From assembly GCF_002443295.1 (NCBI RefSeq), contig NZ_BAOS01000034.1:1-56641 (forward strand): a stretch of 56,641 bases of DNA, written 5' to 3'. Under the pieces are notes generated by a model. It saw only the letters and a program-made list of their open reading frames with translations, was not told the origin of the DNA and did not search any database. Positions 4,025-34,818 of the stretch are shown here, piece after piece. The DNA is from Candidatus Scalindua japonica (GTDB lineage: Bacteria; Planctomycetota; Brocadiia; Brocadiales; Scalinduaceae). How positions within the stretch are numbered: the first letter of the stretch is position 1; every line of letters begins with the position of its first letter. The position numbers and the translations under genes were made by a program.

Positions 4025-4513
4025 TTATGGTACAGGCCAATCACCTCGTGAATCTATATGGCAGGCAAAGCATATGTTTCTCAGCATTGTATCAAAGAAT
4101 TCATATGTTTCCATAGAATCCATGTTTTTAGAAATCTCAGCAAGCTTTTTGGAGTCTGCTGCAAGTTTTTTTGTGTATTTTTCATACTTATTCCTCATCG
4201 TATTGTCAGACATTTTGAACTTACGTCCTTCTAACCCCCATTTATCATCCGGGAAAAACAGATGCACCATGTCTACACTGATTCTGGATATCCTATTTGA
4301 CTCTTTGAAGACTATATCGAAATCAGCATTCAATATTCCTTCCAGTATTTTTGTCATAGATGCACCTATCGCATGCATCACAATTTTGGTAGCTTCTGTA
4401 CCATGCTTTTCAACACTGTCTTCTCCATATGCCCTATTGACAAAAGAACCAGCACTGGTAGTAAGAACGAACAGGTAAAGTAAAACTATACAGATTTGAA
4501 TGGTTTTTTTCAT
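4025..4513 (-). CDS. Small periplasmic monoheme cytochrome (cytochrome c'-like architecture)
   Basis: The 162-residue precursor has a signal peptide (about 1-30, ending at NRAYG) and one C-terminal CFACH site (148-152). The stretch between them is mostly charged alpha-helix. A heme motif at the end of a four-helix-sized domain is the layout of class II cytochromes (c' or c556 type), but helix packing cannot be confirmed here. It is followed downstream on the minus strand by the vestigial radical SAM fragment. Function is unassigned; electron transfer or NO binding are possibilities for the family. The lipoproteins at 33.9-34.8 kb share the same overall plan. Confidence 0.65.
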   Translation of the reverse strand: MKKTIQICIVLLYLFVLTTSAGSFVNRAYGEDSVEKHGTEATKIVMHAIGASMTKILEGILNADFDIVFKESNRISRISVDMVHLFFPDDKWGLEGRKFKMSDNTMRNKYEKYTKKLAADSKKLAEISKNMDSMETYEFFDTMLRNICFACHIDSRGDWPVP

Positions 4514-4975: not shown

Positions 4976-6727
4976 TTAATTCGCGTCTTCTGGCACGTGT
5001 GACATATATTTCCGGAACTTGTCGATGATCTCAGTATTCTTCACATCTCTATTTGCAAGAAATTCCTTAATGTCGTCAATAACCTCTCTCTTCTTTTGAT
5101 TTTTTGTTTTTGATTTTGCTGTATCAAATGCTCCCATGTCGAGTTTGTCGAACCCAAGTTTTTTCATCCTTCTGGATGCAAACTGCATGGACTCATCTCT
5201 TATCTCAGAGAGAAATGCTGAGGTTATTGTTTTGTATCCCTTTTCCCTGGCGCGTATTTCCATCAGCTTGTAAATTCCGGGCCTTACAAAATCGGGGGCG
5301 TTTTTAACACGCTCCAGCGCCTCGGTCTCCCACTCAATCTTACCGTTCCTGGCAGGTTTCTTTTTAAGCAGCTTCATAAAAGGGAACATAGCCTTCTTGT
5401 CGCCTGCCATCTTTTCCTTTGCTTCTTTCATGATGTCCGGAGTGATCTCGGTATACCCTTTTTCTCTCGCGTACTGTTCTACCCTTTTTATTACCATTCC
5501 TTTTCCAAAGGAGGGTACTTTGCCCAGTCGCTTCTCTGCGTCTTTACTCCATGAGAGCTCAAACTTCTTCTCTAAACCAAATGTGTTCTCTTCTTTAAAC
5601 GACAACTTCTTTCCTCCATATTTTCCTGGTTCATAATCACACCAAGAATCTTCTTCCATCTGATCTCCTGTCGTAACGAGGGCCCTTGCGCGGCAACCTT
5701 TGCACATTGATTCAAACTCACACTCACCGCATCTGCCCTTGAGGTCCGCTTCCCTTAATTCATTCAGTATCCCGGAGTTGTTCCAGATTTCCGCAAAACT
5801 CTTTTCCCGTAAACTTCCACAGGATGTTTCCATATAGGGACAAGCGGTGACGTTACCTTCGGGTGTAATCCTGCAGTAGTTTGTGCCAGCCGGGCATCCG
5901 CCTGAATAGTATTTGACTAATGCCGACTCGGGGTCCATCTCGTATGCTATCCTTCTGTAATGTGGAGCGCACTTTGCGCTGACGAGCATCTTTCCCTCAT
6001 ATTGACTATGGAGTTTGTAGATCTGTTTCAACGCGTCCTCATATTGTTCTGATGTAATATCGGTTATGTCCTGGCCTCTTCCCGTACAGACGAGGAAGAA
6101 AAGGTTAAAGACCCTTGCTTCCATGTTGTTCGCGAAGGCAACCAGTTGGGGAATTTCGTCATAATTCTTTTTAAAAACTGTGGTCTGTATCTGGATTTCC
6201 AATCCGTTTCTTCTGCACGCCTTCATCCCTTCGACCGCCTTTTCCCATGAACCTTTTGCGCCTCGAATTGAGTCATGTACTTCAGGATGAATGGAATCGA
6301 GACTTATGCCAATCCCGGAAAAACCGTTATCTTTCAGCTTTTTAGCCATTTTATCATCAATAAGACATGCATTGGTGCCGAGGAGGACCATCATGCCTTT
6401 CCCCGCAGCATGACGGGACAGATCAAAGATGTCTTTTCGTAAGAGCGGTTCTCCGCCTGTCAGAATCAGGATCAGGTTTGGGTTTAGTTCCGCGATTTCG
6501 TCTATAACCTTCAGTGCGGTGTCAGTGTCCAGTTCATCAGCGGTACTGCCTGTTCCACATTGTATCTGATTAAAGTCAAGAGTGTCTTCGCTGGGTGTGT
6601 AGCCGGGCAGGCTGGTATTCTCCTGGTCTGGTGGTTGAACATTATCTGCCAGAAGGTAACAATGGGTGCACAGTAAGTTGCATGCTTTTGTGAGGTTCCA
6701 GGAAATTACGTGAGGTATGGATTTCAT
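4976..6727 (-). CDS. Radical SAM protein (NirJ/AhbD-like) with two C-terminal PCP_red-like domains
   Basis: The 583-residue protein opens with the radical SAM cluster motif CNLLCTHC (C16, C20, C23), the GGEPLLR motif (91-97), and a SPASM-type C-terminal iron-sulfur region (C278, C285, C296, then CGECEFESMCKGC at 333-345). This set fits the NirJ/AhbC/AhbD group that modifies heme precursors (siroheme or heme d1 pathways). An insertion of about 35 residues (30-65) follows the cluster motif. Two repeats of a small helical domain follow, at about 392-440 and 466-512 (pattern W..DAE.RL..VP.F..G and ..R..ARE.GY..IT), resembling the C-terminal PCP_red domain of light-independent protochlorophyllide reductase subunit B. 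The same domain ends the stress protein at 19010. Substrate is unknown. Confidence 0.75.
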   Translation of the reverse strand: MKSIPHVISWNLTKACNLLCTHCYLLADNVQPPDQENTSLPGYTPSEDTLDFNQIQCGTGSTADELDTDTALKVIDEIAELNPNLILILTGGEPLLRKDIFDLSRHAAGKGMMVLLGTNACLIDDKMAKKLKDNGFSGIGISLDSIHPEVHDSIRGAKGSWEKAVEGMKACRRNGLEIQIQTTVFKKNYDEIPQLVAFANNMEARVFNLFFLVCTGRGQDITDITSEQYEDALKQIYKLHSQYEGKMLVSAKCAPHYRRIAYEMDPESALVKYYSGGCPAGTNYCRITPEGNVTACPYMETSCGSLREKSFAEIWNNSGILNELREADLKGRCGECEFESMCKGCRARALVTTGDQMEEDSWCDYEPGKYGGKKLSFKEENTFGLEKKFELSWSKDAEKRLGKVPSFGKGMVIKRVEQYAREKGYTEITPDIMKEAKEKMAGDKKAMFPFMKLLKKKPARNGKIEWETEALERVKNAPDFVRPGIYKLMEIRAREKGYKTITSAFLSEIRDESMQFASRRMKKLGFDKLDMGAFDTAKSKTKNQKKREVIDDIKEFLANRDVKNTEIIDKFRKYMSHVPEDAN

Positions 6728-7236: not shown

Positions 7237-10092
7237 ATGAAAAAAGAAGAAGAAAAATCATATGCAGGTTTGTACTTGTTTCTGAGTATTATACTTACCT
7301 TAACGATAGCATGGGCTGTCTGGAATGAAGTAGTTACAAAAAGGCCATGGAAATCGTATCAATCCAGGTTTCATGAGTTAGAAAAAGATAAGGTCAGGGG
7401 GGACTACGGTGAAGCGATGGAGGAGTTTAGTCAACCTGAAGTTCAGGAAAAATATAGAGAAATCCAGGAAAAACTTGCTGTGGCATGGGGCAGGTTTAAT
7501 ACACCGGAAGTCCAGCAGAAATACAGGAAAACATTCAGAGAGTTGCGCGTTTTGGATAAAGAGAAGTTGTCTCCTTTAAAGTTTGAAGCGATGGTAACGC
7601 GAAATAAGATGATGGAAGAGGAGTACCGGTATGGTGTACACAGGAGTGATGAGTCGGAGGGGAAGATTAAGGCGTTGGAGGAGCGTGGCAAGGAGTTGGC
7701 GGCAAGTATAGGCCAAATTGAGAAAAAGAGGGCAGAATTACAAGCTTATCTGGATGAATCCAGGCGTGGTATAAATATGTATGCAGATGAATTGAAGACG
7801 TTTACCGGTGATATGAATAGATATCAGGAAGCAATGGCAATATTAAAGTCAAAAAGGCCGTCGTTGCAGATCCACCAGGTTCACCTTGAGGATATTAATG
7901 AGGCGGACCGGTGCATGTCGTGTCATGTTGGTATTAACAGGAAAGAGGGTGTTTCAGAAGAGCAGCCGTACGCGGGCCATTCAAGGAGAAACGTCTATCT
8001 TGGCAATCATCCTCCTGAGAAGTTTGGTTGTGTATTATGCCATGAGGGGCAGGGAAGGGCGACCATAAGCCCGGAGAAGGCACATGGTGAAGTGGAGTAC
8101 TGGTTGACTCCGCTTCACAGGGGCAATGTAGCTCAGTCTTCATGTGTCAAGTGTCACAATAAAGGTGAAAAGTTGGTAGGGGGAGAGGATATCGCGAAAG
8201 GGATAGAGTTGTTTGAAGGATTAGGTTGTTTTGGTTGTCATGAGGCAAAAGGGTTCGGAGAAGACCGGAACAGTATGATAGGGCCTGACTTGACTGAGAT
8301 AGGCAGCAAGGTAAATTCGGGATGGTTGCTGGAGTGGTTGAAAAACCCTAAACATTTCAGGCCAAGTACAAGGATGCCTGATTTCAGGCTGGAGGAGGAA
8401 GACGCGATGGCTATAACCTCATATCTCTGGCAGAATTCGGAAAGTTTTGATCCCGGTGAGCCGGAAGAGTTTGATGATGAAACGATAGACGAGGGTGCAT
8501 ATTTATTTGAGAGTATAGGGTGTCTCGCGTGTCATAGTGAAATAGAGGAAGATGGGAGGGTCCACGGGCCTAACCTTTCCCGGATTGGTGACAAGGCAAA
8601 TTACGAGTATCTGGTAAGTTGGCTTCTTGTTCCAAAATCACATCAGCCGAAGACAAGGATGCCTGACATGAAACTTGATGAGGAAGATGCGCAGTACATT
8701 GCATCGTACTTGATGAGTTTGAAGGGCGAAGGAGGGTATGAAAATTTATCAGGTTCAGATTGGTTAAATGATAAAGAAACTGCTGAAAAAGGAGAAGAGT
8801 TGATAGGCAGGTATGGTTGTTTCGGCTGTCATAAGATAATGGGAATGGAAGGGATGGGTAAGATAGGTGTTGAGTTGAGTGAGGTGGGTTCCAAGCATAT
8901 TCATCTGTTTGACTTTGGTTTGTTGGAGAAGGAGGTACTTGGTAGGGTCGGGTTGAATAATGCGCATGAAAACATTTCAGAGGCAAGGCGCGCATGGTTT
9001 GCGGCGAAACTAAGTGATCCAAGGCAGTTTGATAAAGGTCGTTATAAGAGGCCCAAAGACAAATTGAAGATGCCTGATTTCGGTTTATCTGCGGAAGAGA
9101 TAGAGACGTTGTCTATTCTGTTGACAGGGATGAAAGAGGGTGGGTTGCCTGAGGGTTATATCGCGAAATTATCTGATGAAAAAAGTTACTTGATGGAGGG
9201 TGAAAGAGTAATTGATAAATACAACTGTATGGGGTGTCATCAGTTTACCATAGATACTTTGTATTTGAAGAGTGGGCTTGAGGTTAAAGGGATGGTCAAG
9301 CTTGAGGAGGAAGATGGTCTCTATTTTCAATTATGGGTAGATAATGAAGGGCTTGGTAAAAAGGCGGGAGATACTGTCCAGATAATGGATGAAGAGATAG
9401 AGAGAAGGGTCTCGTCGCAAGGAGGGGATATCAGTTCGTTTATTATAGACTACCATGTAGAGGTAGAGGGGAGTTTTCCTGAAGAGGCTAAGGTATTTAC
9501 TCCTCCTGTGCTGTATGAAGAGGGCAAAAAGGTGCAGGGTGCGTGGCTTTTTGACTTTCTCAAAGAACCGAAGACCTTGAGGCCGTGGCTTGATGTTCGA
9601 ATGCCTCTTTTTAAAATGACTGAAAATGAAGCTACGGTATTGTCCAGATACTTTGCGGTTTTGGAAAAGGAAGAGTACCCTTATGAGTTTATTGTTGAGA
9701 CTAAAGAGAGTTATTTAAACGAGAAACGTAAAGAGAATCCCGAATATCTTGCTATGGCTCAGCATTTATTCGAGCACAAAGATGTAAATTGTGCGTCATG
9801 TCATGTTAGAGGAGATATCACACCTGAAGGTGATCCTTCAGATTGGGCCCCTGATTTGTCAGTGTCTCGGAACAGGTTAAAGCCTGACTGGATAGTGGAT
9901 TGGCTTTTAGATCCACAAATAAAGCAGCCTGGTACAAAGATGCCTAAGTTTTTCAGGGAAGGTGAATTTCAGGATATATTCCCCGGAACACCGGAGGAAC
10001 AGGCTGTTGCATTAAAGGATTTATTGATGAATCTGCCGGAGGAGATGTTGAAACAGGAGGAAGTTGACTCGGCAGATTCCTTAGTTGAATAA
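7237..10092 (+). CDS. Membrane-anchored octaheme c-type cytochrome
   Basis: The chosen ATG follows GTGGGGA and gives a 951-residue protein with one N-terminal membrane segment (about 10-30) and a long charged coiled-coil-like region (about 45-200). Eight CXXCH sites follow, at residues 226, 265, 303, 331, 429, 528, 664 and 852. The first three are closely spaced (a triheme-like block). The later ones sit in repeated class I cytochrome c domains, each ending in a candidate Met ligand (TRMPDFRL, TRMPDMKL, LKMPDFGL, VRMPLFKM, TKMPKFF). About 130 extra residues separate sites 7 and 8. The protein should lie mostly outside the cytoplasm as an electron wire. As first gene of the cluster with the CydA-like protein, it likely hands electrons to or from that core. 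Confidence 0.85.
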   Translation: MKKEEEKSYAGLYLFLSIILTLTIAWAVWNEVVTKRPWKSYQSRFHELEKDKVRGDYGEAMEEFSQPEVQEKYREIQEKLAVAWGRFNTPEVQQKYRKTFRELRVLDKEKLSPLKFEAMVTRNKMMEEEYRYGVHRSDESEGKIKALEERGKELAASIGQIEKKRAELQAYLDESRRGINMYADELKTFTGDMNRYQEAMAILKSKRPSLQIHQVHLEDINEADRCMSCHVGINRKEGVSEEQPYAGHSRRNVYLGNHPPEKFGCVLCHEGQGRATISPEKAHGEVEYWLTPLHRGNVAQSSCVKCHNKGEKLVGGEDIAKGIELFEGLGCFGCHEAKGFGEDRNSMIGPDLTEIGSKVNSGWLLEWLKNPKHFRPSTRMPDFRLEEEDAMAITSYLWQNSESFDPGEPEEFDDETIDEGAYLFESIGCLACHSEIEEDGRVHGPNLSRIGDKANYEYLVSWLLVPKSHQPKTRMPDMKLDEEDAQYIASYLMSLKGEGGYENLSGSDWLNDKETAEKGEELIGRYGCFGCHKIMGMEGMGKIGVELSEVGSKHIHLFDFGLLEKEVLGRVGLNNAHENISEARRAWFAAKLSDPRQFDKGRYKRPKDKLKMPDFGLSAEEIETLSILLTGMKEGGLPEGYIAKLSDEKSYLMEGERVIDKYNCMGCHQFTIDTLYLKSGLEVKGMVKLEEEDGLYFQLWVDNEGLGKKAGDTVQIMDEEIERRVSSQGGDISSFIIDYHVEVEGSFPEEAKVFTPPVLYEEGKKVQGAWLFDFLKEPKTLRPWLDVRMPLFKMTENEATVLSRYFAVLEKEEYPYEFIVETKESYLNEKRKENPEYLAMAQHLFEHKDVNCASCHVRGDITPEGDPSDWAPDLSVSRNRLKPDWIVDWLLDPQIKQPGTKMPKFFREGEFQDIFPGTPEEQAVALKDLLMNLPEEMLKQEEVDSADSLVE

Positions 10093-10368
10093 GTGGATAA
10101 GAAGGGGTTATAAATTTTTTTTTAAAATGTAGTAATTTATATTTGAAATGTTAAAGTTTTTCTGATATAAGTTTTACCTTTGAGGTTTCAGCATTTCTTG
10201 GGTTCTTCAAAAGAAGGTAAATACCAGATTTATTGAATAGATTATCTGGTAAAGTATATTTATCGATTTGCTGATTTCTGGTTTTTTGTATCAAATTATT
10301 TTTATTTATCAATTTTATTTATCAAATAGATAACCTAAAAGATCTTGACATAGATTGGGGGGATTAAG

Positions 10369-11136
10369 ATGGATAAGTTTATGAAGAATTGCGTTTGTTA
10401 CCTGGCAGTAGGATTGCTTTCACTAGTTTTGGTGGTAGGTAATTCAAGAGATACTCTGGCGGCATACGAGGGTGGCGATGTATCTAACGGCGGTACAATA
10501 ACCGGTACTGTGAAGATTGCTGGCGATGTGCCAGCAGTAAAAGCACTGAAAGTGGACAAAGATCAGTCTACATGCGGGCATGATGATCTTCCATCAGAAG
10601 CATTGATGGTTTCAGATGGTGCTATACAGAATGCGGTAGTCTCTATTACTAACATCTCTAAAGGTAAAAAATTTGAAGGCGGTACCCCGGAATTAGATCA
10701 GAAAGGGTGTGTTTTTATCCCTCATATTGCTATGATTCCTCAGGGAAGTTCTATTAAGCTGCTAAACAGCGATGATGTTATGCATAATCTTCATTCGTGG
10801 TCCATGAAAAATACAGCATTTAACGAAGGAGTTGCGGCCCATGGAAATATTTCCAAAACATTTGAGTTTCCTGAAACTGTCAAGGTGACATGTGATGTTC
10901 ACAAGTGGATGACTTCCTGGCTGATAGTGCAGGCGAATCCTTACTATGCTATAACAGATGCAAATGGAAACTATAAGCTTGAAGGGGTGCCTGCTGGTAC
11001 ATATACAGTTCAGGCATGGCAGGAGTCACTTGGAAAGAAAACTCAGGAAGTTACAGTAACTGCTGGTGGCGAAGTCAAGGCAGACTTTGGGCTGGAAAAG
11101 AAAGCAAAGAAAAAGAGAAAAAGAAAAAAGCATTAA
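10369..11136 (+). CDS. Cupredoxin (type 1 copper) protein with carboxypeptidase-regulatory-like tail
   Basis: The 255-residue precursor has a signal peptide (about 1-32). A GTITGTVK strand opens the mature protein, and a plastocyanin-like domain supplies a full type 1 copper ligand set: H139 (VMHNLHSW), C175 and H178 (TCDVHKW) and M181. The C-terminal DANGNYKLEGVPAGTYTVQAW is typical of carboxypeptidase-regulatory domains, and the last 15 residues are strongly basic. A GGGGGA ribosome site precedes the ATG. It sits between the octaheme cytochrome and the CydA-like protein, so a role as soluble or loosely bound electron carrier, or as a copper subunit of the complex, is likely. Confidence 0.8.
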   Translation: MDKFMKNCVCYLAVGLLSLVLVVGNSRDTLAAYEGGDVSNGGTITGTVKIAGDVPAVKALKVDKDQSTCGHDDLPSEALMVSDGAIQNAVVSITNISKGKKFEGGTPELDQKGCVFIPHIAMIPQGSSIKLLNSDDVMHNLHSWSMKNTAFNEGVAAHGNISKTFEFPETVKVTCDVHKWMTSWLIVQANPYYAITDANGNYKLEGVPAGTYTVQAWQESLGKKTQEVTVTAGGEVKADFGLEKKAKKKRKRKKH

Positions 11137-11204
11137 GTTGGTTGTTGCTTTTGAATTGGTTTTATAAGGATTAGCTGAATCTAATTTTAGACTATATATA
11201 AAGA

Positions 11205-13214
11205 ATGAACTTAAAAAATTTGAATTTGAAAATTGTTTTTGCTCTCTTTCTCGCAATCTTTTTTGTTGCGCTGGCAGTTAACTCTGGGATAGCTAATGAA
11301 AGTGGCGGTGAGTCAGATGCCGTAGAGGCATCAGTGGATACCGGTGAGACGGCAGAAGAGGAAGAAAAATCTGTGCCTTTTGAAGTTGTCGAATACAGAA
11401 ACTTCTTTGGTATTGATGGCAGGCTTCTTGTCTGGATAGTTTCTCAGTTACATCTCATGTTCGCGGCCTTTGTGTTGGCTGTACCACTTTTTGTGGTTAT
11501 CATTGAGATGATTGGGGCAAAGACGAATCAAATAAAATTTGATAATCTGGCGTATGAGCTTACGAAGCTATTGTCAACAGCATTTGCTACAACGGCCGCA
11601 CTTGGTGGGCTTCTGGCTTTTGCATTATACGGTTGCTATCCAGGTTTTATGCGGTACATGACTGATGTTTTTCATCCGTATATGTATGTGTATGCGCTCT
11701 GCTTCTTCGGTGAGGTGTTCTTTCTTTATGCCTACTATTATTCATGGAATTTATTAAATAAAGGTATGGGGAAGTGGGTTCATATTTTTCTGGGTGTAAT
11801 GTTGAATGTTTTCGGTACAACCTTGATGATGCTCGCTAATTCCTGGGCAACATTTATGATGGCGCCAGCGGGAATAGATATGAAAACCGGAGCGATATTA
11901 AGCCGGTCTGCAGCGTTCTTTAATTTTCTCTGGATGCCTGTTAACATTCATCGTATTATAGCCAATGTGGCCTTCGGCGGTTTTGTAGTGGGGGCATATG
12001 CAGCAGTTAAGTTTATGGGGGCGAAAACTGAAGAAGATAAAGCACACTATGATTGGATGGGTTATATAGGTAATTTCATTGGTCTGGCTGCGTTTATTCC
12101 GTTGCCTTTTGCCGGTTACTATCTAGGAAGAGAAATTTACAGTGCCAGTCCTGTTATGGGTAATATCATGATGGGAGGGGCTTTTTCCTGGACTTTCATT
12201 ATACAGGCAATTCTTATCGGTATGCTGTTCGTTGGCGGAAACTATTATTTGTGGAACGGTATGGGCAGGATAAAAGGTGCTGAGCGCTATACTCCTTATA
12301 TTAAGTATATAAATATAGTTATATTCTTCTGCTTTGCCGTTTGGCTAACACCTCATAATCTTCCGCTTAGTGGAGAAGAGAGGGCTCTTATTGGAGAGCA
12401 ATATCATCCATTTTCCAAATTCTTCGGAGTTATGGCTGCAAAAAATGCGGTTGTAAACCTCCTAATTCTTTCTACATTCTTCAGTTTCCTGTTGTATAAA
12501 AGAGCTAATAAGGGTGAAACAAAGCCGTTTAAGAGTCATGGTAATACTGCGAGAGTTACGATGATTATTACTGTCGGTCTGACAGTAATGTACCTGATCT
12601 GGTATGCAATGGGTCTTAAGGGGCAGGATTTGGACGCGGCAGTAAAGCCGTACTTGTCGCCTCTTCTCAAGTGTATTACGATACAGATTATAGCACTGAT
12701 TGGTGCGCTGTTTCTTACTTTTGCAAATAAAGGCAAGCTTGCGCAGACTTTGCTGTTTGTTGTGACAGTCTCAATATCTGTTGTATACTTCTGGTATTAT
12801 GGTTTTGTTGTTATGGAAAAGGCAAACATGGTATTAAGGTTTTTGTCAGTAACGCAGGTGTCCATAGTGATTTCAACTTTGATAGTTAACACGGTTATTG
12901 ATGTTTTTCTTTTTAAAGACGCAAAAGAAGTAGGTGGAATTCAGTGGGGTAAAATACCAAACAGGGCACAATACGCACTGTTGCTTCTCTGTGTTGCTAT
13001 CGTTACACTTATGGGCTTGATGGGTTTCATACGTTCAGGTCTCAGGATGAACTGGCATATTTACGGATATATGCAGGATAAGTCTGCAGGTGCGTTTACA
13101 CCCAGTATTGCTTATATGGGTTGGGTAGTTTCTTTGATTGTATTCCTCTTTTTGTTTATGGTAGCTGCTGTATTCTGGCTGGCAGGTCTTGCTGGTAAGA
13201 AGAAGAGTGTCTAA
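11205..13214 (+). CDS. Cytochrome bd-like quinol oxidase subunit I (CydA-like) membrane protein
   Basis: The 669-residue polytopic protein starts with a signal-like segment (10-30) and an acidic linker (32-56), both unusual for CydA. It then shows CydA-family helices: SQLHLMFAAF with H83, which resembles the heme b595 ligand position; HPYMYVYALCFFGEVFFLY with H157 and E170; ANSWATFMMAPAG, equivalent to the NSW/NGW motif of CydA; and NIHRIIANVAFGG with H249. About five further membrane helices follow, extending beyond the usual CydA core. No CydB lies nearby; cytochromes c and a cupredoxin flank it instead. Homologues of this type are known in Nitrospira and anammox genomes as bd-like proteins of unproven function. 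Oxygen reduction, NO turnover or quinol oxidation are all possible. Confidence 0.75.
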   Translation: MNLKNLNLKIVFALFLAIFFVALAVNSGIANESGGESDAVEASVDTGETAEEEEKSVPFEVVEYRNFFGIDGRLLVWIVSQLHLMFAAFVLAVPLFVVIIEMIGAKTNQIKFDNLAYELTKLLSTAFATTAALGGLLAFALYGCYPGFMRYMTDVFHPYMYVYALCFFGEVFFLYAYYYSWNLLNKGMGKWVHIFLGVMLNVFGTTLMMLANSWATFMMAPAGIDMKTGAILSRSAAFFNFLWMPVNIHRIIANVAFGGFVVGAYAAVKFMGAKTEEDKAHYDWMGYIGNFIGLAAFIPLPFAGYYLGREIYSASPVMGNIMMGGAFSWTFIIQAILIGMLFVGGNYYLWNGMGRIKGAERYTPYIKYINIVIFFCFAVWLTPHNLPLSGEERALIGEQYHPFSKFFGVMAAKNAVVNLLILSTFFSFLLYKRANKGETKPFKSHGNTARVTMIITVGLTVMYLIWYAMGLKGQDLDAAVKPYLSPLLKCITIQIIALIGALFLTFANKGKLAQTLLFVVTVSISVVYFWYYGFVVMEKANMVLRFLSVTQVSIVISTLIVNTVIDVFLFKDAKEVGGIQWGKIPNRAQYALLLLCVAIVTLMGLMGFIRSGLRMNWHIYGYMQDKSAGAFTPSIAYMGWVVSLIVFLFLFMVAAVFWLAGLAGKKKSV

Positions 13215-13279
13215 GACGGTTTCGTCGCTGGTTGAATTAAACGTAGTTGCAATAATAAATATTTAGGAAAAAATAAATA

Positions 13280-14227
13280 ATGAAAAGTTTCTTAAAGGCA
13301 GTAGCGTTTACACTGTCTGTTCTTGGTTTTTTTGCTTATGTTTGTATTTACGTAACTGGGCTTTCCGGCGGCAGTGGCGGAGGTGGAGCCACCGGGATAA
13401 GTCCTGAAGCGGGTGAAAAGATTTACTGGGGAGATGGTCAATGCCATACATGTCACAGTATCGGTACATCCGGTAGTGCGACAAGAGGGCCTAACCAGGA
13501 GGGTCTCGCATCAAGGGCTGAGGAAAGGGCGAAGGCAGCTGGACTCTCTTCTGGCCTTGAATACCTGGTGGAATCAATCGTACATCCATCGTCCTTTGTA
13601 GTAGAAGGTTATGACAATATTATGCCTAAGGTTTACGAAGCTCCTATTATGCTAGGTCGTGAACAGATACAAGCCGTACTGGTCTATCTTCAGACATTGG
13701 GAGGTGAGCCGGATGTTGAGGCGGTAGCCAAATTTGCAGAAAAGATACCAGAGGCATCAGGTGAACAAGTTGCTCCTTGGGTGCCTCCAATTGATGTAGA
13801 TATAAAAGAGGGAGAGTTGGTCTTCTTTGATGAATCAAGGGGTGTTACATGTTCTAAGTGTCATGTTTTAAACGGAAAAGGCTCTAAAGTCGGGCCAGAT
13901 CTAACAGGTATTGGTGCGGTACAGACACCGGAATACCTTATTGAATCGGTACTTAAGCCTAGTGAAGTAATAGTAAAAGGCTATGAAACTATGTATCTTA
14001 TGACAACAGAAGGAATGGCGTATAACGGGCTCCTTGTCAGTCAGGATGAAGAAGAAGTAGTTTTGATGGTTGATGAAGACGGAGTTATGGAAGAATATGT
14101 TTTCTATCCAGATGAAATAGCTCAGATGCAGAAACAGGACGTATCAATTATGCCAGGTAATTTCAGGGATATGCTTACAACAAAAGAATTTTATGGTGTA
14201 ATTTTGTATCTTTTGAGCCAGAAATAA
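13280..14227 (+). CDS. Membrane-anchored diheme cytochrome c
   Basis: The 315-residue protein has an N-terminal membrane anchor (about 6-27), then a Gly-rich linker and two class I cytochrome domains with heme sites CHTCH (55-59) and CSKCH (191-195). The phrases EYLVESIVHPSSFVVEGYDNIMP and EYLIESVLKPSEVIVKGYETM are repeats of one domain type, also seen in membrane-bound heme dehydrogenase proteins, and each offers a Met. AGGAAA precedes the ATG. It directly follows the CydA-like gene (65-bp gap) and is probably a tightly bound electron-transfer subunit. Confidence 0.8.
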   Translation: MKSFLKAVAFTLSVLGFFAYVCIYVTGLSGGSGGGGATGISPEAGEKIYWGDGQCHTCHSIGTSGSATRGPNQEGLASRAEERAKAAGLSSGLEYLVESIVHPSSFVVEGYDNIMPKVYEAPIMLGREQIQAVLVYLQTLGGEPDVEAVAKFAEKIPEASGEQVAPWVPPIDVDIKEGELVFFDESRGVTCSKCHVLNGKGSKVGPDLTGIGAVQTPEYLIESVLKPSEVIVKGYETMYLMTTEGMAYNGLLVSQDEEEVVLMVDEDGVMEEYVFYPDEIAQMQKQDVSIMPGNFRDMLTTKEFYGVILYLLSQK

Positions 14228-14290
14228 ATTTAATAATAGAATAACCAGAGAAAGAGAAATTAGTTAGTAGATTGTGGGAAAGGTAACTTG

Positions 14291-15064
14291 ATGGCAAAAA
14301 ATAAAAATTCGTATTCGATGATAATGGTAATAGTATCAGTACTAATTGTATTTGCCATTATCAAAGTAATTGCACCATACGTTTTCATGATTTTGCTGGC
14401 AAAAGATCATACTATGCCTACTCCAAGTACGTTGTTGCTCTGGTACATGGTATTGGCAGTGCTTGCATCACTTGTATATGTTTCAACAAGTGATCTGAAG
14501 TGGGCAAATTTTTTAAGCTTTATATTGCCTGCGGGTGATGATAAGTTTAAAGCTCTTTTCCAGAAGATGATGGTGATTGCATTCCCATTACTTGTTGGTT
14601 GGTTTGTTTATTCCGGGACTGTTCCAGGTACGGCGTCTCCAGTAGAATTGAGAATCCAGCATCCGACGTTGCTGCAAGAGTTTGAGAAACTTGAAAATCC
14701 TTTTGCGAATGCTGACGAAGCAACTAAAAGAAAGTGTATTGAAGAGGGTAAACATCTTTATCAGCAGAACTGTCGCCCTTGTCATGGATCTAAAGCAGAC
14801 GGTAATGGACCATTTGCCAATGCTTTCCGTTTAAGACCAATTAATTTTACCGATCCTGGAACAATTGCAACAGTTGTAGAAAATTTTGCTTTCTGGAGAA
14901 TTAAAGAAGGTGGACCAGGGCTTCCGGCGGTATCAACTCCATGGGATTCAGCAATGCCAGCTTGGAAAGATGTTTTAACTGATACACAAATATGGAAGAT
15001 AATAATGGGTGAATATGTGACTGCAGGAGTGCAGTCACGTCAAAGAGAAGAGATGGAACACTAA
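14291..15064 (+). CDS. Membrane-bound monoheme cytochrome c
   Basis: The ATG at 14291, behind AAAGGT, was preferred to an adjacent TTG. The 257-residue protein has three membrane segments (about 10-36, 46-64 and 93-110) and then a cytochrome domain with CRPCH (161-165) in the phrase CRPCHGSKADGNGPFA and a late Met (SAMPAWKDVL). Membrane segments plus a single C-terminal heme domain suggest a CcoP-like topology as the cluster's integral electron-entry or exit subunit. The next gene starts 20 bp downstream, consistent with one operon. Confidence 0.8.
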   Translation: MAKNKNSYSMIMVIVSVLIVFAIIKVIAPYVFMILLAKDHTMPTPSTLLLWYMVLAVLASLVYVSTSDLKWANFLSFILPAGDDKFKALFQKMMVIAFPLLVGWFVYSGTVPGTASPVELRIQHPTLLQEFEKLENPFANADEATKRKCIEEGKHLYQQNCRPCHGSKADGNGPFANAFRLRPINFTDPGTIATVVENFAFWRIKEGGPGLPAVSTPWDSAMPAWKDVLTDTQIWKIIMGEYVTAGVQSRQREEMEH

Positions 15065-15083
15065 CATAGTTTGGATTATAAAT

Positions 15084-16811
15084 ATGAGCAAAATAAAAAA
15101 TAAATCAGTTCTCAGGAACATTCTTATAAGCATGCTTGCGGGGATATTTGTTATTATGTGTCTGAGAGATAGTGATGCCCAGACTTCGCAGCTATTCAGG
15201 GTCTATAGTACCGAAGTTTCAGGGAAAATAGCGGAAACATCTGAAGCTGTTGCTGCGGGAAAAAAAATATATGAGATCAAATGCTACTATTGTCATGGAA
15301 TAAAAGGTGACGGAAATGGTTCCGATGCTCCTCGACTTGATCCAAAACCAAGAAATTTTACCAGAAATGAATACAAGATACGTTCTACAGGTCCGGGAGT
15401 TCTTCCTACCGACGAAGATCTCTACAGGATTATATCCAGTGGTGTTGAGGGTTCAGCGATGCCTTTCTGGAATACGTTAAAACCTGAAGAGAGATGGCAG
15501 GTGATCTTTTACATAAAGACATTCAATCCGGAATTTAAGAATAAGAGTGATCGATCTGAAGTATCCTTAGCTGGCGGAACTGCTTCAAGCCCCGATTCTA
15601 TAAAACGAGGAAAGAAGTTGTTTAAGGAGGCTAAATGTATTTTGTGTCATGGTGAAGATGGTAGAGGAGAGGGGCCCATTACAACAACGCTAAAGAAGCA
15701 ATGGGATCTTCAATTTAAGGCGAGAGATCTTACACAAAGTTGGATGTATAAAGGTGGTAACACTGAAGGTGATATTTTCAGAACGATAACAACCGGTCTG
15801 AATGAAACCCCAATGGGATCATATGCTGATTATCTTACTGACGATGACAGATGGCACCTTTCGCATTATGTGAAGTCTATTTCTCATGATATGAAAACAG
15901 ATGTTGTGCTTAAGTCGAAGCTGCTAGAAGGAAATCTCCCGAAAGGACCTGATGATGTTGCCTGGGATACTTTAGAGGCCGTTGAACTGCCTTTGGCTGG
16001 TCAGATTGTAGCAAGTCCAAGATTCTGGACACCATCTGCAAACTCTATAAGAATTAGATCTTTTTACAACGATAAAAATATTGCGTTTCTTGTAGAGTGG
16101 GATGACAGGACAAATGAGCAGAGTGAGATATATAGTGATGCAGTCGCTCTGCAATTTCCTACAAAGATTCCAGAAGGATTAAAAAAGCCCTATTTTGCAA
16201 TGGGCGACTCCAGCAAAGGTGTAGAACTTTTGCATTGGAAAGCGTATGATGAATCTGTTCTTACTGTGCAAAGCTCTGAAGAAGATAATATAGAGACGGA
16301 AGCAGATGGTGGTTCTGAAGCTGAAGATGAGCCTGATGAAGCAGAAAGTGAAGAAACTGCTGATGAAGAACAGGAGGATGAACTGGTATCAGAGGGTTCA
16401 GCCATGCAAGAATTTGAGGGCTTTTTTTCGATAAAAGAGATGAATGCCAAGGGCTTTAAAAGGCTATCAGTACAACCAGATGCTAGCCAGAATTCTAAGG
16501 GTAAAGGTCACTGGAAGAATGGTAAATGGCAGGTTATGATTACAAGGCCTCTTTTTACTCGTGACAAGAAAATAGATGTTCAATTTGAGAAGGGTAAATT
16601 AATTCCTTACGCTTTAGCAGTGTGGGATGGCTCAAACTCAGAGATTAAAGGACAGAAAGCGATATCATCGTGGTATTATCTTACTTTGGAGATGACAACG
16701 CCAAATAGCGTTTACATTTATGCAATTGTTGCCGTTATTATGGCAATCTGTATTCAATTCTGGGTGGTAGCAAGGATACGAAGATTCCCGACTGAAATTC
16801 CTGAAGAGTGA
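15084..16811 (+). CDS. Diheme cytochrome c fused to an NxrC/ethylbenzene-dehydrogenase-gamma-like domain
   Basis: The 575-residue precursor has a signal peptide (about 8-32) and two cytochrome c domains with CYYCH (67-71) and CILCH (185-189), each followed by GxGxG-type loops and an AMPFW or PMGSY Met. Residues about 295-400 (SPRFWTPSANSIRIRSFYND, AFLVEWDD, DAVALQFP) match the EB_dh fold that binds heme b in gamma subunits of ethylbenzene dehydrogenase, perchlorate reductase and nitrite oxidoreductase. A very acidic insertion (about 398-435) interrupts or follows it, and a C-terminal membrane helix (about 545-563) anchors the protein. A fusion of heme c, heme b domain and anchor is an unusual design. 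No molybdenum catalytic subunit is nearby. Confidence 0.8.
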   Translation: MSKIKNKSVLRNILISMLAGIFVIMCLRDSDAQTSQLFRVYSTEVSGKIAETSEAVAAGKKIYEIKCYYCHGIKGDGNGSDAPRLDPKPRNFTRNEYKIRSTGPGVLPTDEDLYRIISSGVEGSAMPFWNTLKPEERWQVIFYIKTFNPEFKNKSDRSEVSLAGGTASSPDSIKRGKKLFKEAKCILCHGEDGRGEGPITTTLKKQWDLQFKARDLTQSWMYKGGNTEGDIFRTITTGLNETPMGSYADYLTDDDRWHLSHYVKSISHDMKTDVVLKSKLLEGNLPKGPDDVAWDTLEAVELPLAGQIVASPRFWTPSANSIRIRSFYNDKNIAFLVEWDDRTNEQSEIYSDAVALQFPTKIPEGLKKPYFAMGDSSKGVELLHWKAYDESVLTVQSSEEDNIETEADGGSEAEDEPDEAESEETADEEQEDELVSEGSAMQEFEGFFSIKEMNAKGFKRLSVQPDASQNSKGKGHWKNGKWQVMITRPLFTRDKKIDVQFEKGKLIPYALAVWDGSNSEIKGQKAISSWYYLTLEMTTPNSVYIYAIVAVIMAICIQFWVVARIRRFPTEIPEE

Positions 16812-16850
16812 TTGTAAGACATTTTAGAGTTGAAACTTAAAGTAAATAAA

Positions 16851-18332
16851 ATGATTAATAAGAAAAAAATAAATTATACATCGATTATAGTAGTTATTTG
16901 TGTAGTATTAGGATTTGTACTGGCTTGTGAACAACCAGGTATTGCGCAATCGCTGGAACCTGATCCGCTTTTTCTTGAATTGGAATCTATATATAGAGGA
17001 GATAAGGATTACAAGCAACTACCTTTTGATCTTGAAGACCCTTATAAGAGATCTAAAAATGGACCAACTCTTAAAAATGTTGTTCATAAGGCAAATAAGG
17101 AATGGATTAAGAAGTGGATTGATAATCCCAGTGCCATGATTCCAAATGCTAGAATGCCGAGGCTTATGCTGAGCCCGGAGGATATTGAAGCTGTTATTGC
17201 TTATCTTGAAAGTATTGCCGACAGTAGCTTTCCAAAACAGGAGTGGGAGGCTGGATTGCTAAAACCAGAGGACGATATGACAGATGAAGAATACGAGCTT
17301 ATGGATGAACTGGTATCTGGCGGAAAGGGTGTCTGGGGACGCGCAAGATGTAACATATGTCATCCTGTCAAGGGAAAGGGCGGAGCTGTAGGAGTCGGTC
17401 CGGATCTTGGTGCTGTCGCAAATAAGGTCAATCGTGACTGGTTATATCAGTGGATTAAGGAGCCTAGAGGCTATTTTCATGAAACACAGATGTCAAGATA
17501 TAGGCTAGATGAAGGTGACTTGAGAAAACTTGTGGAATACTTGATGCAGGATTGGGATTTTAAACCTGAGGAAGCGGATGAGGACGCTAGTGAAGAAGAA
17601 GAGGTTGCGGCTTCAGAGGTATCTGAATCTGTAGAAACACTTGATGTTGAACCATCGATTAATATAGAGGGTACGTTAGCCGAGAGAGGGAAAAAGATTA
17701 TTGAATTCAATCGATGTTTTGTCTGTCATGAAATAGAAGGTGTTTCTGAATTGCTCCCTGTTAAAAACCAGAAAAGTGAGAGTGAAACAAATAACGAATT
17801 TGAGAAATTGTTAAATGATGTCAGATGTATGACATGCCACAATATACAAGGGCACGGTGGCTTATTTGCACCTGAGCTTACTCATGAAGGCAGTAAGCTG
17901 AAGGGTGAGTGGATAAAGGGGTTTATAGAGACGCCTGATATTATTCGTCCCTTACTAAAACAGATGCCGAAGTTTAACCTGACTTCAGATGAGGCGCAAA
18001 CCGGTGCTGATTTTGTAGAAGAGTATTTTGTGAGTGATGAGATTGACTTAGATTCTTTTGCTAATGTAGAGCCAACGGAAGAGCAGATTAACAAGGGTAA
18101 AGAGATTTATGCAGCTAAGGGCTGTAAAACCTGTCATACCATTCAGGTGGGTGGTATCGTTGGTCCCAATATGAAAAGGGTTGGTGATAGAATGGAAAAC
18201 GGTTTTATTTTCTTCCATTTAAAAGATCCTCACCATGAAACTCCTGATTCTGTTGAACCTGACTATAAACTTACTGACGAAGAAGCAACCGCGTTAACAC
18301 ATTACCTGATGTCTTGTAAAGACAAAAAATAA
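16851..18332 (+). CDS. Tetraheme cytochrome c with an additional heme-less cytochrome domain
   Basis: The ATG at 16851 gives 493 residues; an upstream in-frame TTG at 16830 would add seven. A hydrophobic signal ends in VLAC, a possible lipobox. The first domain (about 70-120) has the C-terminal half of a class I cytochrome (NARMPRLMLSPEDIEAVIAYL) but no CXXCH, so it has lost its heme. Four CXXCH sites follow at about residues 167, 289, 326 and 425, with an acidic linker (about 240-265) after the first. Sites 289 and 326 are close together and separated by an insertion. It belongs to the same operon as its neighbours, 10 bp before the next gene, and probably forms part of the extracytoplasmic heme chain. 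Confidence 0.8.
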   Translation: MINKKKINYTSIIVVICVVLGFVLACEQPGIAQSLEPDPLFLELESIYRGDKDYKQLPFDLEDPYKRSKNGPTLKNVVHKANKEWIKKWIDNPSAMIPNARMPRLMLSPEDIEAVIAYLESIADSSFPKQEWEAGLLKPEDDMTDEEYELMDELVSGGKGVWGRARCNICHPVKGKGGAVGVGPDLGAVANKVNRDWLYQWIKEPRGYFHETQMSRYRLDEGDLRKLVEYLMQDWDFKPEEADEDASEEEEVAASEVSESVETLDVEPSINIEGTLAERGKKIIEFNRCFVCHEIEGVSELLPVKNQKSESETNNEFEKLLNDVRCMTCHNIQGHGGLFAPELTHEGSKLKGEWIKGFIETPDIIRPLLKQMPKFNLTSDEAQTGADFVEEYFVSDEIDLDSFANVEPTEEQINKGKEIYAAKGCKTCHTIQVGGIVGPNMKRVGDRMENGFIFFHLKDPHHETPDSVEPDYKLTDEEATALTHYLMSCKDKK

Positions 18333-18342
18333 CCTGGAAATC

Positions 18343-18987
18343 ATGAATATATTGATAAAAAATTATATAATAGTAATCATATGTTTCTTTGTTGTCGGAT
18401 TCACATCAATTAATCATGTAGGTGGTTCAGAGGGACAATCAACAAAGAATGCACAAGCTGGATCTGAAGAACCTGATAAGAAATATGAATTGATTGAAAA
18501 GGCAAAGATATACATGACGTCACCTAAAGAAGTATTTCTTTATTATTGCAGTCCATGCCATGGTAAAAAGGCTAATGGAAAGGGAATCTATTTTACTATA
18601 GACCTGAAACCAAGCCCCTCAGATCTGACAAATGTAGAGTATATGGCAGCTCTGACAGACGATTATCTTCTGAACTTTATTACTCAAGGTTCTGCAGCCA
18701 TGGAAAAATCTACGCTATGTCCACCTTGGGGTAAAACTCTTGATGAAGGAACAATAAAGGGTATCATAGGTTATCTGAGAAGCCTGACTATTGCAAAATC
18801 GAAAGAAAGTACGAATGCTTCTGATAAAGAAGAGGTGGATGCTGCAGTTGTTGCAGAGGTAACAGATCAAGGAACCCCGCAGGCAGTTATATGGAGCGTT
18901 TTGGCATTCTTGTGTGCCTTCTTTGCTATCGGTGCGGCTAGAGAGTGGAAGAAGTTAGCTAAAGAAGGCCCCTCAAAGAAAAAATAA
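18343..18987 (+). CDS. Monoheme cytochrome c with C-terminal membrane anchor
   Basis: The 214-residue precursor has a signal peptide (about 5-28), one heme site CSPCH (69-73) in YYCSPCHGKKANGKG, a late Met (AAMEKSTLCPPWG), and a C-terminal membrane helix (about 177-195: AVIWSVLAFLCAFFAIGAA). It resembles the single-domain oxidase-associated cytochromes of the same cluster at 14291 and 15084. The start lies 10 bp after the previous stop. Confidence 0.8.
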   Translation: MNILIKNYIIVIICFFVVGFTSINHVGGSEGQSTKNAQAGSEEPDKKYELIEKAKIYMTSPKEVFLYYCSPCHGKKANGKGIYFTIDLKPSPSDLTNVEYMAALTDDYLLNFITQGSAAMEKSTLCPPWGKTLDEGTIKGIIGYLRSLTIAKSKESTNASDKEEVDAAVVAEVTDQGTPQAVIWSVLAFLCAFFAIGAAREWKKLAKEGPSKKK

Positions 18988-19009
18988 CTATTAATGCTGG
19001 GAGTTGATT

Positions 19010-20266
19010 TTGTACAAGAAAATATTCATTCCTCTGGATAATTCAAAATATTCCGACTTTTGTGAAGATATTGCAATATCTATTGCGAAGAAATCCAATT
19101 CTGAACTTGTAGGGGGGCATGTATATGCCGCCAGTCTGCATCACAAACGTTTCAAAGAGATGGAAGTCGGACTTCCTGAAAAATATAAAGAAGAAAGCGA
19201 GCTTAAAAAACAGAGAGAATATCACAATTCTTTGATAGGTCGCGGACTTCGAATGATCTCAGATTCATATCTGGATAGCCTCGAAAGAAAAAGCAAAGAG
19301 CAAAGCATTCCCTTTAAAAGAAATATTAAAGAAGGGAAAAATTACATTGAGTTGGTAAAGGATATCAACAATAATGATTATGATTTAGTGATTATTGGTG
19401 TCAGAGGCCTTGGTGAGGTGGAAGGCAATGCAATAGGTAGTGTCTGTGAAAGAGTCGTCAGGAGAATTAATACAGATGTTTTAATAGTAAAGAATAAAAG
19501 GCCGCTTTCAGGTCGGGTAATCGTGACTGTTGATGGCAGCGAACAGTCATTTCGGGCAGTTGAGATGGCATCTGATTTAGCTGTAAAAAATAATCTTGAG
19601 TTGGAAGCTGTGTCAGTCTATGATCCACACTATCACCGTGTAGCTTTTAACGGAATCGCTAAGATACTTTCCGGTGAAATGGGAGAAGTATTCAAGTCTG
19701 ATGAACAGGAAAAACTGCATGAGGATGTAATAGATAAGGGGCTTGAAAAGATTTATCAAGGACATCTTGAAAGCGCGTTAAACAAAGTAATAAAATCAGG
19801 GTTACAATTAAAGACTACACTTCTTGAAGGTAAGCCATATGATCAGATATTAAAGTATATTGAAAAAGTAAAGCCTTCTCTTCTGGTATTGGGCCGTACT
19901 GGTATTCATGCTATCGATGGTCTGGATCTGGGAAGTGCTACAGAGAATATTCTGAGAAATGCAAATTGCAATGTCCTTATTACTAAGAGCAGGCAAAAAG
20001 TGGAGACAAATCCATTTTACCAGGATGAGGAAATTGTAAAGAGGGAAATAATGAAGGAGCAGGCAGAGGAACAGGCTATAACCACAGAGACTGTTTCCTG
20101 GACCGAAGACGCAAACACCTTAATCTCAAAAGTTCCTGCTTTTGTAAGGCCTATGGTTGTTGGTGAAGTTGAGAATTATGCAAGAACGAAAGGCAGTCGT
20201 GAGATTACAAGAGAAATAGTTGAAGAGGTAAAGTCTAAGTGGGCTGACTCAATGAACTATTCTTGA
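19010..20266 (+). CDS. Tandem universal stress protein with C-terminal PCP_red-like domain
   Basis: Two UspA domains are fused. The first (about 1-155) begins with a strand and a Leu-Asp pair (KIFIPLDNS) and ends near INTDVLIVKNKR. The second (about 164-330) has VIVTVDGSEQSFRAVEMA and the nucleotide-loop sequence LGRTGIHAIDGLDLGSATENILRNANCNVLITK, close to the GxxGxxxxxxxxGS ATP-binding pattern. Residues about 365-412 repeat the PCP_red-like domain seen twice in the radical SAM protein at 4976. TTG at 19010 was chosen because GGGAG lies 6 bp upstream; TTG 19004 is in frame too. As a cytoplasmic last gene of the cytochrome operon it may sense energy state or support complex assembly. Confidence 0.75.
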   Translation: MYKKIFIPLDNSKYSDFCEDIAISIAKKSNSELVGGHVYAASLHHKRFKEMEVGLPEKYKEESELKKQREYHNSLIGRGLRMISDSYLDSLERKSKEQSIPFKRNIKEGKNYIELVKDINNNDYDLVIIGVRGLGEVEGNAIGSVCERVVRRINTDVLIVKNKRPLSGRVIVTVDGSEQSFRAVEMASDLAVKNNLELEAVSVYDPHYHRVAFNGIAKILSGEMGEVFKSDEQEKLHEDVIDKGLEKIYQGHLESALNKVIKSGLQLKTTLLEGKPYDQILKYIEKVKPSLLVLGRTGIHAIDGLDLGSATENILRNANCNVLITKSRQKVETNPFYQDEEIVKREIMKEQAEEQAITTETVSWTEDANTLISKVPAFVRPMVVGEVENYARTKGSREITREIVEEVKSKWADSMNYS

Positions 20267-33888: not shown

Positions 33889-34341
33889 TTATCTGTCACC
33901 ATTTTTTTTGTATCCTTCGTGACACAATTCACATAACTTTATCATCTTTCCGAATTGTACATCGACAATTTCACTGTCTTGTTTTTTGCAAGACAGGATT
34001 AGCCTGTTTGTTGCGTTATAAAACCTGTCACTTAATATAATAAACTCGCCCGATGCGCCTGGATGGGTTTTTATATACAAGTTTACACAACTGACTCCGA
34101 TTCCCTGTTTTAGCTCATTTGCCCACATCTCAATCTCTATCCAATCCCTGGATTCTAAAGCTTTTGCCAGTCTTCTGGTATCTCGGGAAGTTTTTTTCAT
34201 TGCCAGTTTTAATGTTTTGTCTTCTGACATATACGCCTGTATCTCCTCATCATCGACTGCCTTCTCCTCTGCCTTTTTACAGGAAATCAATCCCGTTAGC
34301 GCTACCGATAGAAATAGAAATAGAATCAATAACGCTTTCAT
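33889..34341 (-). CDS. Monoheme c lipoprotein, paralogue 1
   Basis: The 150-residue precursor has a lipoprotein signal (MKALLILFLFLSVALTGLISC, lipobox Cys at 21), a charged helical domain and a C-terminal CELCH site (about 139-143). The phrases LKLAMKKTSRDTRRLAKALESRDWIEIEMWANELKQGIG and SVNLY-like CVNLY align along their whole length with the neighbouring gene at 34360. The layout (helical bundle, terminal CXXCH) resembles class II cytochromes. It is presumably a membrane-tethered periplasmic electron carrier or ligand binder. Confidence 0.75.
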   Translation of the reverse strand: MKALLILFLFLSVALTGLISCKKAEEKAVDDEEIQAYMSEDKTLKLAMKKTSRDTRRLAKALESRDWIEIEMWANELKQGIGVSCVNLYIKTHPGASGEFIILSDRFYNATNRLILSCKKQDSEIVDVQFGKMIKLCELCHEGYKKNGDR

Positions 34342-34359
34342 GTTTCTATAATTGACATT

Positions 34360-34818
34360 TTAGTGCTGTAACATTAATGGCAGACCTTCTTTCTCTTTAT
34401 ATATATCATGGCAATCATCACAGGTCTTTATCAATCGATCAAACTTAGAATCTATAGCTTCAACATCGTGTTCTTTGCAAGACTCTGTCAGTTTTCTTAC
34501 CGCGTCGTAAAATTGACTGCCCAGTATGACAAATTCACTTGAAATACCACGATGTTCAGCCATATATAGCTCTACACAGCTGTAACCAATTCCTTCCTTC
34601 AGCTCTTTCGTCCACATCTCTATCTCGACCCAGTCTCTGCCTTCAACAGAGCTTGATAATCTTCTTAAATCTCTAGATGCTCTTTTCATCGCGTCTCCTA
34701 AAGTTTCATCTCCTTGAGATGTAGAAAGCTTTTCAACTTTTACTTCCTCTACCTTATTACAGGAAGTAAGGGCAGAAAATAATGTACATATGATTATAAG
34801 TAGTATTAATTGTCTCAT
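34360..34818 (-). CDS. Monoheme c lipoprotein, paralogue 2
   Basis: The 152-residue precursor has a lipoprotein signal with lipobox Cys (ALTSC, Cys 20), a helical domain (AMKRASRDLRRLSSSVEGRD, then WVEIEMWTKELKEGIGYSC) and CDDCH near the end (about 136-140). It is clearly a tandem duplicate of 33889-34341, 18 bp upstream on the same strand, with conserved W, E and C positions including an extra Cys in GxxCxxLY. Function is unassigned. Confidence 0.75.
   Translation of the reverse strand: MRQLILLIIICTLFSALTSCNKVEEVKVEKLSTSQGDETLGDAMKRASRDLRRLSSSVEGRDWVEIEMWTKELKEGIGYSCVELYMAEHRGISSEFVILGSQFYDAVRKLTESCKEHDVEAIDSKFDRLIKTCDDCHDIYKEKEGLPLMLQH

Follow-up and report, generated by a model that had tools for sequence, protein, structure and literature searches.

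The window analysed here is a stretch of 56,641 nucleotides from the anaerobic ammonium-oxidizing (anammox) bacterium Candidatus Scalindua japonica (contig NZ_BAOS01000034.1). Its positions 7237 to 20266 hold nine open reading frames (ORFs), all on the plus strand, which encode a CydA-like membrane protein, a type-1 copper protein, six c-type cytochromes, and a universal stress protein (g1 to g9 in Table 1). An earlier note, made from this sequence alone, had described nine co-directional genes in which a CydA-like protein and a cupredoxin are accompanied by six cytochromes with 18 CXXCH sites. An ORF check of the window found all of these as described, with 8, 2, 1, 2, 4, and 1 sites in the successive cytochromes. 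The same note counted three membrane-anchored cytochromes, whereas simple hydropathy gives four, with an N-terminal anchor in g1, three helices in g5, and C-terminal anchors in g6 and g8; the hydrophobic stretch of g1 could be a signal peptide instead. Because the gap between g1 and g2 is 276 nt and the other intergenic gaps are 10–68 nt, g1 may be a unit separate from g2–g9. The limits of the operon are unproven, because a promoter and terminator scan of the cluster gave signals that were not above the shuffled background. The host genome carries hydrazine synthase (HZS) alpha, and the host is a Scalindua-type anammox bacterium, placed by its relatives and not by 16S rRNA.

Table 1. Genes of the nine-gene cluster and associated genes in the window (aa, amino acids; TM, transmembrane; NXR, nitrite oxidoreductase)
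Gene	Product	Positions	Strand	Kuenenia position	Features and basis
g1	Octaheme cytochrome c, 951 aa	7237..10092	+		8 CXXCH; hydrophobic anchor at the N-terminus, followed by a charged and probably coiled-coil region
g2	Secreted type-1 copper protein: cupredoxin with a CarboxypepD_reg-like domain at the C-terminus	10369..11136	+	kustd1713	Pfam, synteny
g3	CydA-like (bd-like) integral membrane protein, 669 aa	11205..13214	+	kustd1712	About 15 predicted TM helices; PF01654, Foldseek
g4	Diheme cytochrome c	13280..14227	+	kustd1711	CXXCH count, synteny, fusions
g5	Monoheme cytochrome c, three N-terminal TM helices	14288..15064	+	kustd1710	Some loci encode it fused to a g6-type protein
g6	Alternative NxrC made up of a diheme cytochrome c domain, an EB_dh (heme b) domain, and a TM helix at the C-terminus	15084..16811	+	kustd1709	
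g7	Tetraheme cytochrome c	16830..18332	+	kustd1708	CXXCH count, synteny
g8	Monoheme cytochrome c, C-terminal TM anchor	18343..18987	+	kustd1707	CXXCH count, synteny
g9	Double universal stress protein domain plus PCP_red domain	19004..20266	+	kustd1706 (UspA)	Domain search, synteny
Associated	Radical SAM/SPASM protein with two PCP_red domains, NirJ2/AhbD-like	4976..6727	-		Divergent from the cluster
Possibly associated	Monoheme protein	4025..4513	-	NXR-T (kustd1705)	24% identity, weak, to the gene at this position in the Kuenenia-type NXR cluster

The cluster is not new: such clusters are already described, their function unsolved, and the window holds the Scalindua-type (marine anammox) version. 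For Kuenenia stuttgartiensis, Table 1 of PMC6423088 lists kustd1706–1713 as UspA, monoheme, tetraheme, diheme, monoheme, diheme, “cydA”, and conserved protein, adjoining NxrA/B/C, the subunits of nitrite oxidoreductase (NXR). Eight of the nine window genes match this set in the same order (PMC6423088, PMC8387239), whereas in the window NxrABC does not adjoin the cluster and a complex III-type octaheme cytochrome comes before it. The genes kustd1699–1713 were down-regulated together with NXR when Kuenenia grew on nitric oxide (NO) in place of nitrite (PMC6423088). Further “bd-like”/alternative-NxrC clusters have been published (PMC3578206, PMC6606698, PMC8026999): a 14-helix bd-like protein in which three helices replace the Q-loop, lacking the quinol residues and with a possible role in reverse electron transport (PMC3578206); the bd-like_3/alt_NxrC_2 cluster of Nitrospira (PMC6606698); and a synteny conserved in Nitrospinae, Nitrospirae, and anammox bacteria, with two heme-copper ligands missing (PMC8026999). 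The Nitrospira cluster and its Nitrospina gracilis counterpart (PMC6606698, PMC3578206) share with the window an approximately 14-helix bd-like protein without a Q-loop, an alternative NxrC that is bound to the membrane and has two heme c sites, and both c-type cytochromes and cupredoxins; the published descriptions are the basis for equating the anammox copy with bd-like_3. Several Nitrospirota loci, unlike the window, carry CydA-like modules of two clades, A and A' (defined below), where the window has A only. What is new here is the Scalindua variant, the gene fusions, the permutations with complex III, the missing A' partner, the relatives linked to iodate reductase (Idr), and the association with a radical SAM protein.

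Within the class, the CydA-like protein is present in 52 of 75 genomes: 16/17 in Scalinduaceae (family f1), 2/2 in f2, 0/9 in f3, 33/33 in Brocadiaceae (f4), 1/1 in f5, and 0/13 elsewhere. Family f3 (genomes G003–G011), with hydrazine synthase in 6/9 and NxrA in 7/9, is an anammox lineage without the CydA-like module. A plasmid search gave no match to the CydA-like protein. In Brocadiaceae, g2–g9 run directly into NxrC-NxrB-TorD-(NxrT?)-NxrA in all 15 loci with enough contig, and in Scalinduaceae g2–g9 stand separate from NXR with g1 ahead of them. Because the Brocadiaceae orthologues are linked, we treat the missing NxrABC linkage in the window as a lineage difference. The order of g2–g9 in the window (cupredoxin, CydA-like, diheme, monoheme, diheme/EB_dh, tetraheme, monoheme, Usp) equals that of the Brocadiaceae loci and of the published Kuenenia list. 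In f2 the core g2–g6 is duplicated in tandem, and in both f2 and f3 a g6-type protein lies immediately upstream of NxrA.

Complex III enters these arrangements through g1. This protein is orthologous to the octaheme subunit that Rieske/cytochrome b operons of anammox bacteria encode, since its full-length relatives elsewhere directly follow Rieske/cytb6/cytbC. Brocadiaceae have a complex III operon of their own, in which such an octaheme protein comes after Rieske-cytb6-cytbC (L205, L207). In f3, a single operon reads [g6-type]-NxrA-NxrB-TorD-Rieske-cytb6-cytbC-octaheme (L105/L193, L108/L194), where the g6-type protein is a diheme EB_dh gamma-type subunit and the octaheme protein is a relative of g1, and in f2 cytb6/cytbC-octaheme directly precedes the CydA-like module. 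In other words, NXR, the CydA-like module, and complex III are linked pairwise across the anammox families. The gene order, which the earlier note had proposed to check in relatives, is kept over the anammox families and many other phyla, and is therefore far beyond chance. In the host genome, two Rieske/cytochrome b gene sets lie near an 828-aa octaheme paralogue (contig C31, L208), and cytochrome b has seven matches in all. The cluster does not resemble alternative complex III, since a domain search of the nine proteins found no ActB Mo/FeS-like and no NrfD-like (ActC/ActF) domains.

The best functional clue is the EB_dh domain of g6 (PF09459, E 7e-30), absent from the earlier note, which is the heme b domain of NxrC. 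The C-terminal part of g6 matches NXR subunit C (PDB 7b04_C, E 1.9e-19), and its N-terminal part matches the diheme cytochrome of a solved structure (PDB 6h5l_B, E 4e-49), which we take to be the partner of an octaheme hydroxylamine-oxidoreductase-like protein. With this domain, its pair of heme c sites, and its TM helix, g6 has the marks of an alternative NxrC. Fusions add a second kind of evidence. Four anammox loci (L065, L068, L069, L070) encode CydA'-diheme fusions of 844–880 aa with 2 CXXCH and the diheme part at the C-terminus, and two loci (L063, L070) encode monoheme-EB_dh fusions of 754–765 aa with 3 CXXCH. Because these Rosetta-stone fusions join the equivalents of g3 and g4 and of g5 and g6, the members of each pair are predicted, and likely, to touch physically. 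Since the CydA-like member of the first fusion is a clade A' paralogue and not the window-type clade A, the prediction for g3 and g4 is indirect for the window copy. The earlier proposal of a CydB-less, multi-subunit candidate respiratory complex thus gains from the conserved order and from fusions that argue for physical contact.

The CydA-like protein g3 matches PF01654 over its N-terminal residues 73–317 only (E 5e-20) and is the sole match to this family in the 4.8 Mb host genome. The ten best Foldseek matches of its AlphaFold2 model (mean pLDDT 79, pTM 0.80) in the PDB are all cytochrome bd subunit I (E 1.5e-7 to 1.6e-4). CydB (PF02322), which the earlier note had already found lacking as a partner, has no match in the whole host genome, and the same profile was positive in 10 of 14 control genomes. 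A FastTree phylogeny of 108 CydA-like proteins separates clade A (n = 71), which takes in all single-copy anammox proteins, from clade A' (n = 37), which takes in the diheme fusions. A pair of A and A' is present in most Idr-linked proteobacterial loci and some Nitrospirota loci; the host genome has a single CydA-like protein, of clade A, and no A' partner.

The 108 homologues were aligned with CydA and AppC of Escherichia coli to compare their ligands. Three bd residues of E. coli are kept in the window, H19 as H83, E107 as E170, and H186 as H249, and clade A retains them in 69/71, 70/71, and 71/71 proteins; the equivalents of H83 and H249 are retained in 37/37 proteins each of clade A'. Of the heme ligands proposed in the earlier note, H83 and H249 are thus conserved, whereas its third candidate, H157, was discarded, the position being K, H, A, G, or S among homologues. 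M393, whose equivalent in the window is M537, is probably conserved in clade A (68/71), and clade A' does not have it (0/37). Invariant or nearly invariant in the family are H193 and, as new residues, H384, H401, M410, and H618. By contrast with E. coli CydAB, which shares with the window the subunit I fold and these retained positions, g3 has no CydB, has extra helices in place of the Q-loop with M318/M323 at the positions of K252/E257, and has c-type cytochrome partners. E74, E99, E445, and the Q-loop residues K252/E257 were found in none of the 108 homologues. In E. coli, E99 and E445 are axial ligands of heme d and b595, and a change of E74 abolished the heme d signal (PMC6853902). Judged by alignment and model, g3 is a bd fold without the bd oxygen site and quinol loop. 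Because the Q-loop residues and the dihaem-site carboxylates are missing from every homologue examined, bd-type quinol oxidation or O2 reduction, both considered in the earlier note, is unlikely, and clade A looks built to carry electrons and not to reduce O2 as bd does. The cupredoxin ligands of g2 (H139/C175/H178/M181) are kept in 100/100 homologues.

A genome scan found at least 586 CydA-like relatives in many phyla, many of them from lineages that include aerobes, and the homologues in anammox bacteria, Nitrospirota, and Nitrospinota bear out what the earlier note had said of Nitrospira and anammox genomes. The core order cupredoxin-CydA-diheme-monoheme-EB_dh is seen in most of the 80 loci kept. 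NxrAB also lies beside the module in Poribacteria (L128) and in Rokubacteria (L132). The CydA-diheme-monoheme-EB_dh module is adjoined by an IdrA-like Mo protein in 22 loci, most of them proteobacterial (L146–L148, L150–L153, L155–L157, L159, L162, L164, L167, L169–L171, L173, L186, L191, and also L131 and L132), often with an A and A' pair and a HEAT-repeat protein between. The NCBIfam label of this Mo protein is arsenite-oxidase-like. Iodate reductase is marked by its two peroxidases (PMC8692401), and 17 of the 22 loci also carry both diheme peroxidases. The likeness of the window to the IdrABP1P2 clusters (PMC8692401) lies in this shared module; the Mo enzyme is a different one and is absent from the window. 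We found no earlier report of the module next to idr genes in the searchable literature. Co-location with NxrAB and with IdrA-like genes agrees with a module that generally links Mo enzymes of the periplasm to the membrane.

On these grounds we lean, with some reserve, toward a membrane-anchored complex for electron transfer, which would serve NXR and be in electron exchange with either the quinone pool or complex III. What the sequences show are the parts and the conservation of their order, together with the fusions and, in different anammox families, links to NXR and to complex III genes. Four arrangements favour this reading: direct NXR linkage in Brocadiaceae, a g6-type protein beside NxrA in both f2 and f3, a Rieske/cytochrome b operon that follows NXR in f3, and an octaheme protein of the complex III type in f1 and f2. 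The complex would be placed on the anammoxosome-lumen (periplasm-equivalent) side of the membrane. Electrons from nitrite would leave NXR for g6, tethered to the membrane and holding heme b and two c hemes, and would reach the b hemes of the CydA-like subunit by way of g5, g4, the cupredoxin, and the remaining c-type cytochromes. From this subunit they would probably go on, at a cost in proton motive force, either to quinone or to the Rieske/cytochrome b/octaheme complex nearby, and reverse electron transport would thereby be supplied for CO2 fixation. We infer that the parts form a single stable complex, which way the electrons flow, that the complex reacts with quinone, and that proton motive force is used.

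Several observations weigh against this proposal. No quinone site was identified. Family f3 holds hydrazine synthase and NxrA yet no CydA-like gene, so neither anammox nor NXR strictly depends on the module. The NxrC-NxrB-...-TorD-...-NxrA cluster of the host lies on contig C3, and the nine-gene cluster on contig C34. The match of M537 to M393 sits in a poorly alignable region, where the invariant M410 is an alternative. Finally, the electrons of anammox NXR have been argued to serve nitrite reduction (PMC8387239).

This last argument is the basis of the main rival explanation, which we regard as rather unlikely: NXR electrons would go to the nitrite-to-NO step inside the anammoxosome, and the membrane protein would be mainly an anchor or an ion-translocating wire and not a quinone reductase. 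The relationship of the diheme part of g6 to the 6h5l cytochrome agrees with such a route. A lumenal shuttle to this step, however, needs neither a 15-helix b-heme subunit nor a complex III octaheme protein, and the same module stands beside iodate-reductase-like and other systems in non-anammox lineages. In Nitrospira and Nitrospina, moreover, it has been discussed for reverse electron transport or terminal respiration (PMC3578206, PMC6606698).

A cytochrome c-oxidizing oxygen reductase of the OR-N/CydAA' type, perhaps for O2 detoxification in anammox bacteria, seems to us more doubtful still. OR-N1 and OR-N2 have been published as putative oxygen reductases for Nitrospirota/Nitrospinota proteins that, by description, belong to the same superfamily branch and have cytochrome c and not quinol as partner (PMC10839748, PMC12342949); the bd superfamily homology and the many relatives in lineages including aerobes are in keeping with this. 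The loss of the heme d and b595 carboxylates throughout the family speaks against it, and a published comparison finds the high-spin heme histidine and one of the CuB histidines missing as well from the anammox and Nitrospinae copies (PMC8026999). The host and the closed Brocadiaceae genomes hold clade A only, which disfavours a CydAA' oxygen reductase in the host. Anammox bacteria are anaerobic, and two strong COX1-family matches in the host genome could do the job.

Because NO is a central anammox intermediate and bd enzymes interact with NO, a nitric oxide reductase or an NO-detoxifying bd-like enzyme may also be considered. We give it little credence, because the ligands of the dihaem site that binds NO and O2 are lost, and because the Kuenenia cluster was down-regulated and not induced during growth on NO (PMC6423088). 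A canonical cytochrome bd quinol oxidase that simply lost CydB, as the PF01654 match and the bd-subunit-I fold might suggest, is already contradicted by the substituted Q-loop, the extra helices, the missing dihaem carboxylates, and a genome negative for CydB, and we rule it out.

The cluster closes with the Usp-PCP_red protein g9, for which the earlier note suggested energy-state control; there is no evidence either way, and its associations point to tetrapyrrole handling. PCP_red corresponds to the C-terminal domain found in subunit B of protochlorophyllide reductase, and its partner in the window is the divergent radical SAM protein, whose closest NCBIfam models are NirJ2 and AhbD, both below their cut-offs. 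As raw counts from partly redundant loci, without a background rate, the Usp-PCP_red protein occurs in 51 of 120 loci and the radical SAM-SPASM-PCP_red protein in 15 of 120 loci from about nine phyla, often paired with the former (the window, L128, L135, L140, L145, L160, L171, L181, L183, L187, L188, L189, and L191 among them). It is suggestive that the radical SAM-PCP_red protein travels with the bd-like module, and a dedicated tetrapyrrole maturation for the module is possible. The window also holds a candidate AhbD-like heme b synthase (positions 25741-26937, minus strand; 492 bits against a cut-off of 500), which would be expected in an anaerobe using the siroheme route.

The possibly associated monoheme gene of Table 1 lies 2.7 kb from the cluster. 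Two adjacent cytochrome c-prime-like monoheme proteins (33889-34341 and 34360-34818, minus strand), 49% identical to each other, were also considered as NXR-T, and comparison gave no support. Farther right (38838-41636 and 44768-46318) are transposase-like genes, one with an IS66 transposase domain behind an RNase H-like domain, and integrase-like ORFs, and after these come restriction-modification-like ORFs at 50–56 kb; the window's right half thus resembles a mobile region.

How electrons from NXR reach the quinone pool in anammox bacteria and nitrite oxidizers is a long-standing question of the nitrogen cycle, and the structural study of NXR names no partner for NXR-C (PMC8387239). The comparisons made here name a membrane-tethered NxrC-like subunit for this route, and the fusions predict which subunits touch; in f3, a Rieske/cytochrome b operon lies behind NXR where other families have the CydA-like module. 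They also extend the module to iodate-reductase-like systems, make the idea of reverse electron transport directly testable, and argue against the label “oxidase”. A bolder speculation, to which we assign only a small chance, is that the cupredoxin/CydA-like/diheme/monoheme/EB_dh module is a general reversible connector between unrelated periplasmic Mo enzymes (NXR and IdrAB-type) and the membrane chain in many phyla, and that the tetrapyrrole in its CydA-like subunit is a non-standard one, which the NirJ/AhbD-like radical SAM-PCP_red protein makes, assisted by the Usp-PCP_red protein. If true, the module would represent a respiratory membrane complex of a new class, and its heme type would be new as well.

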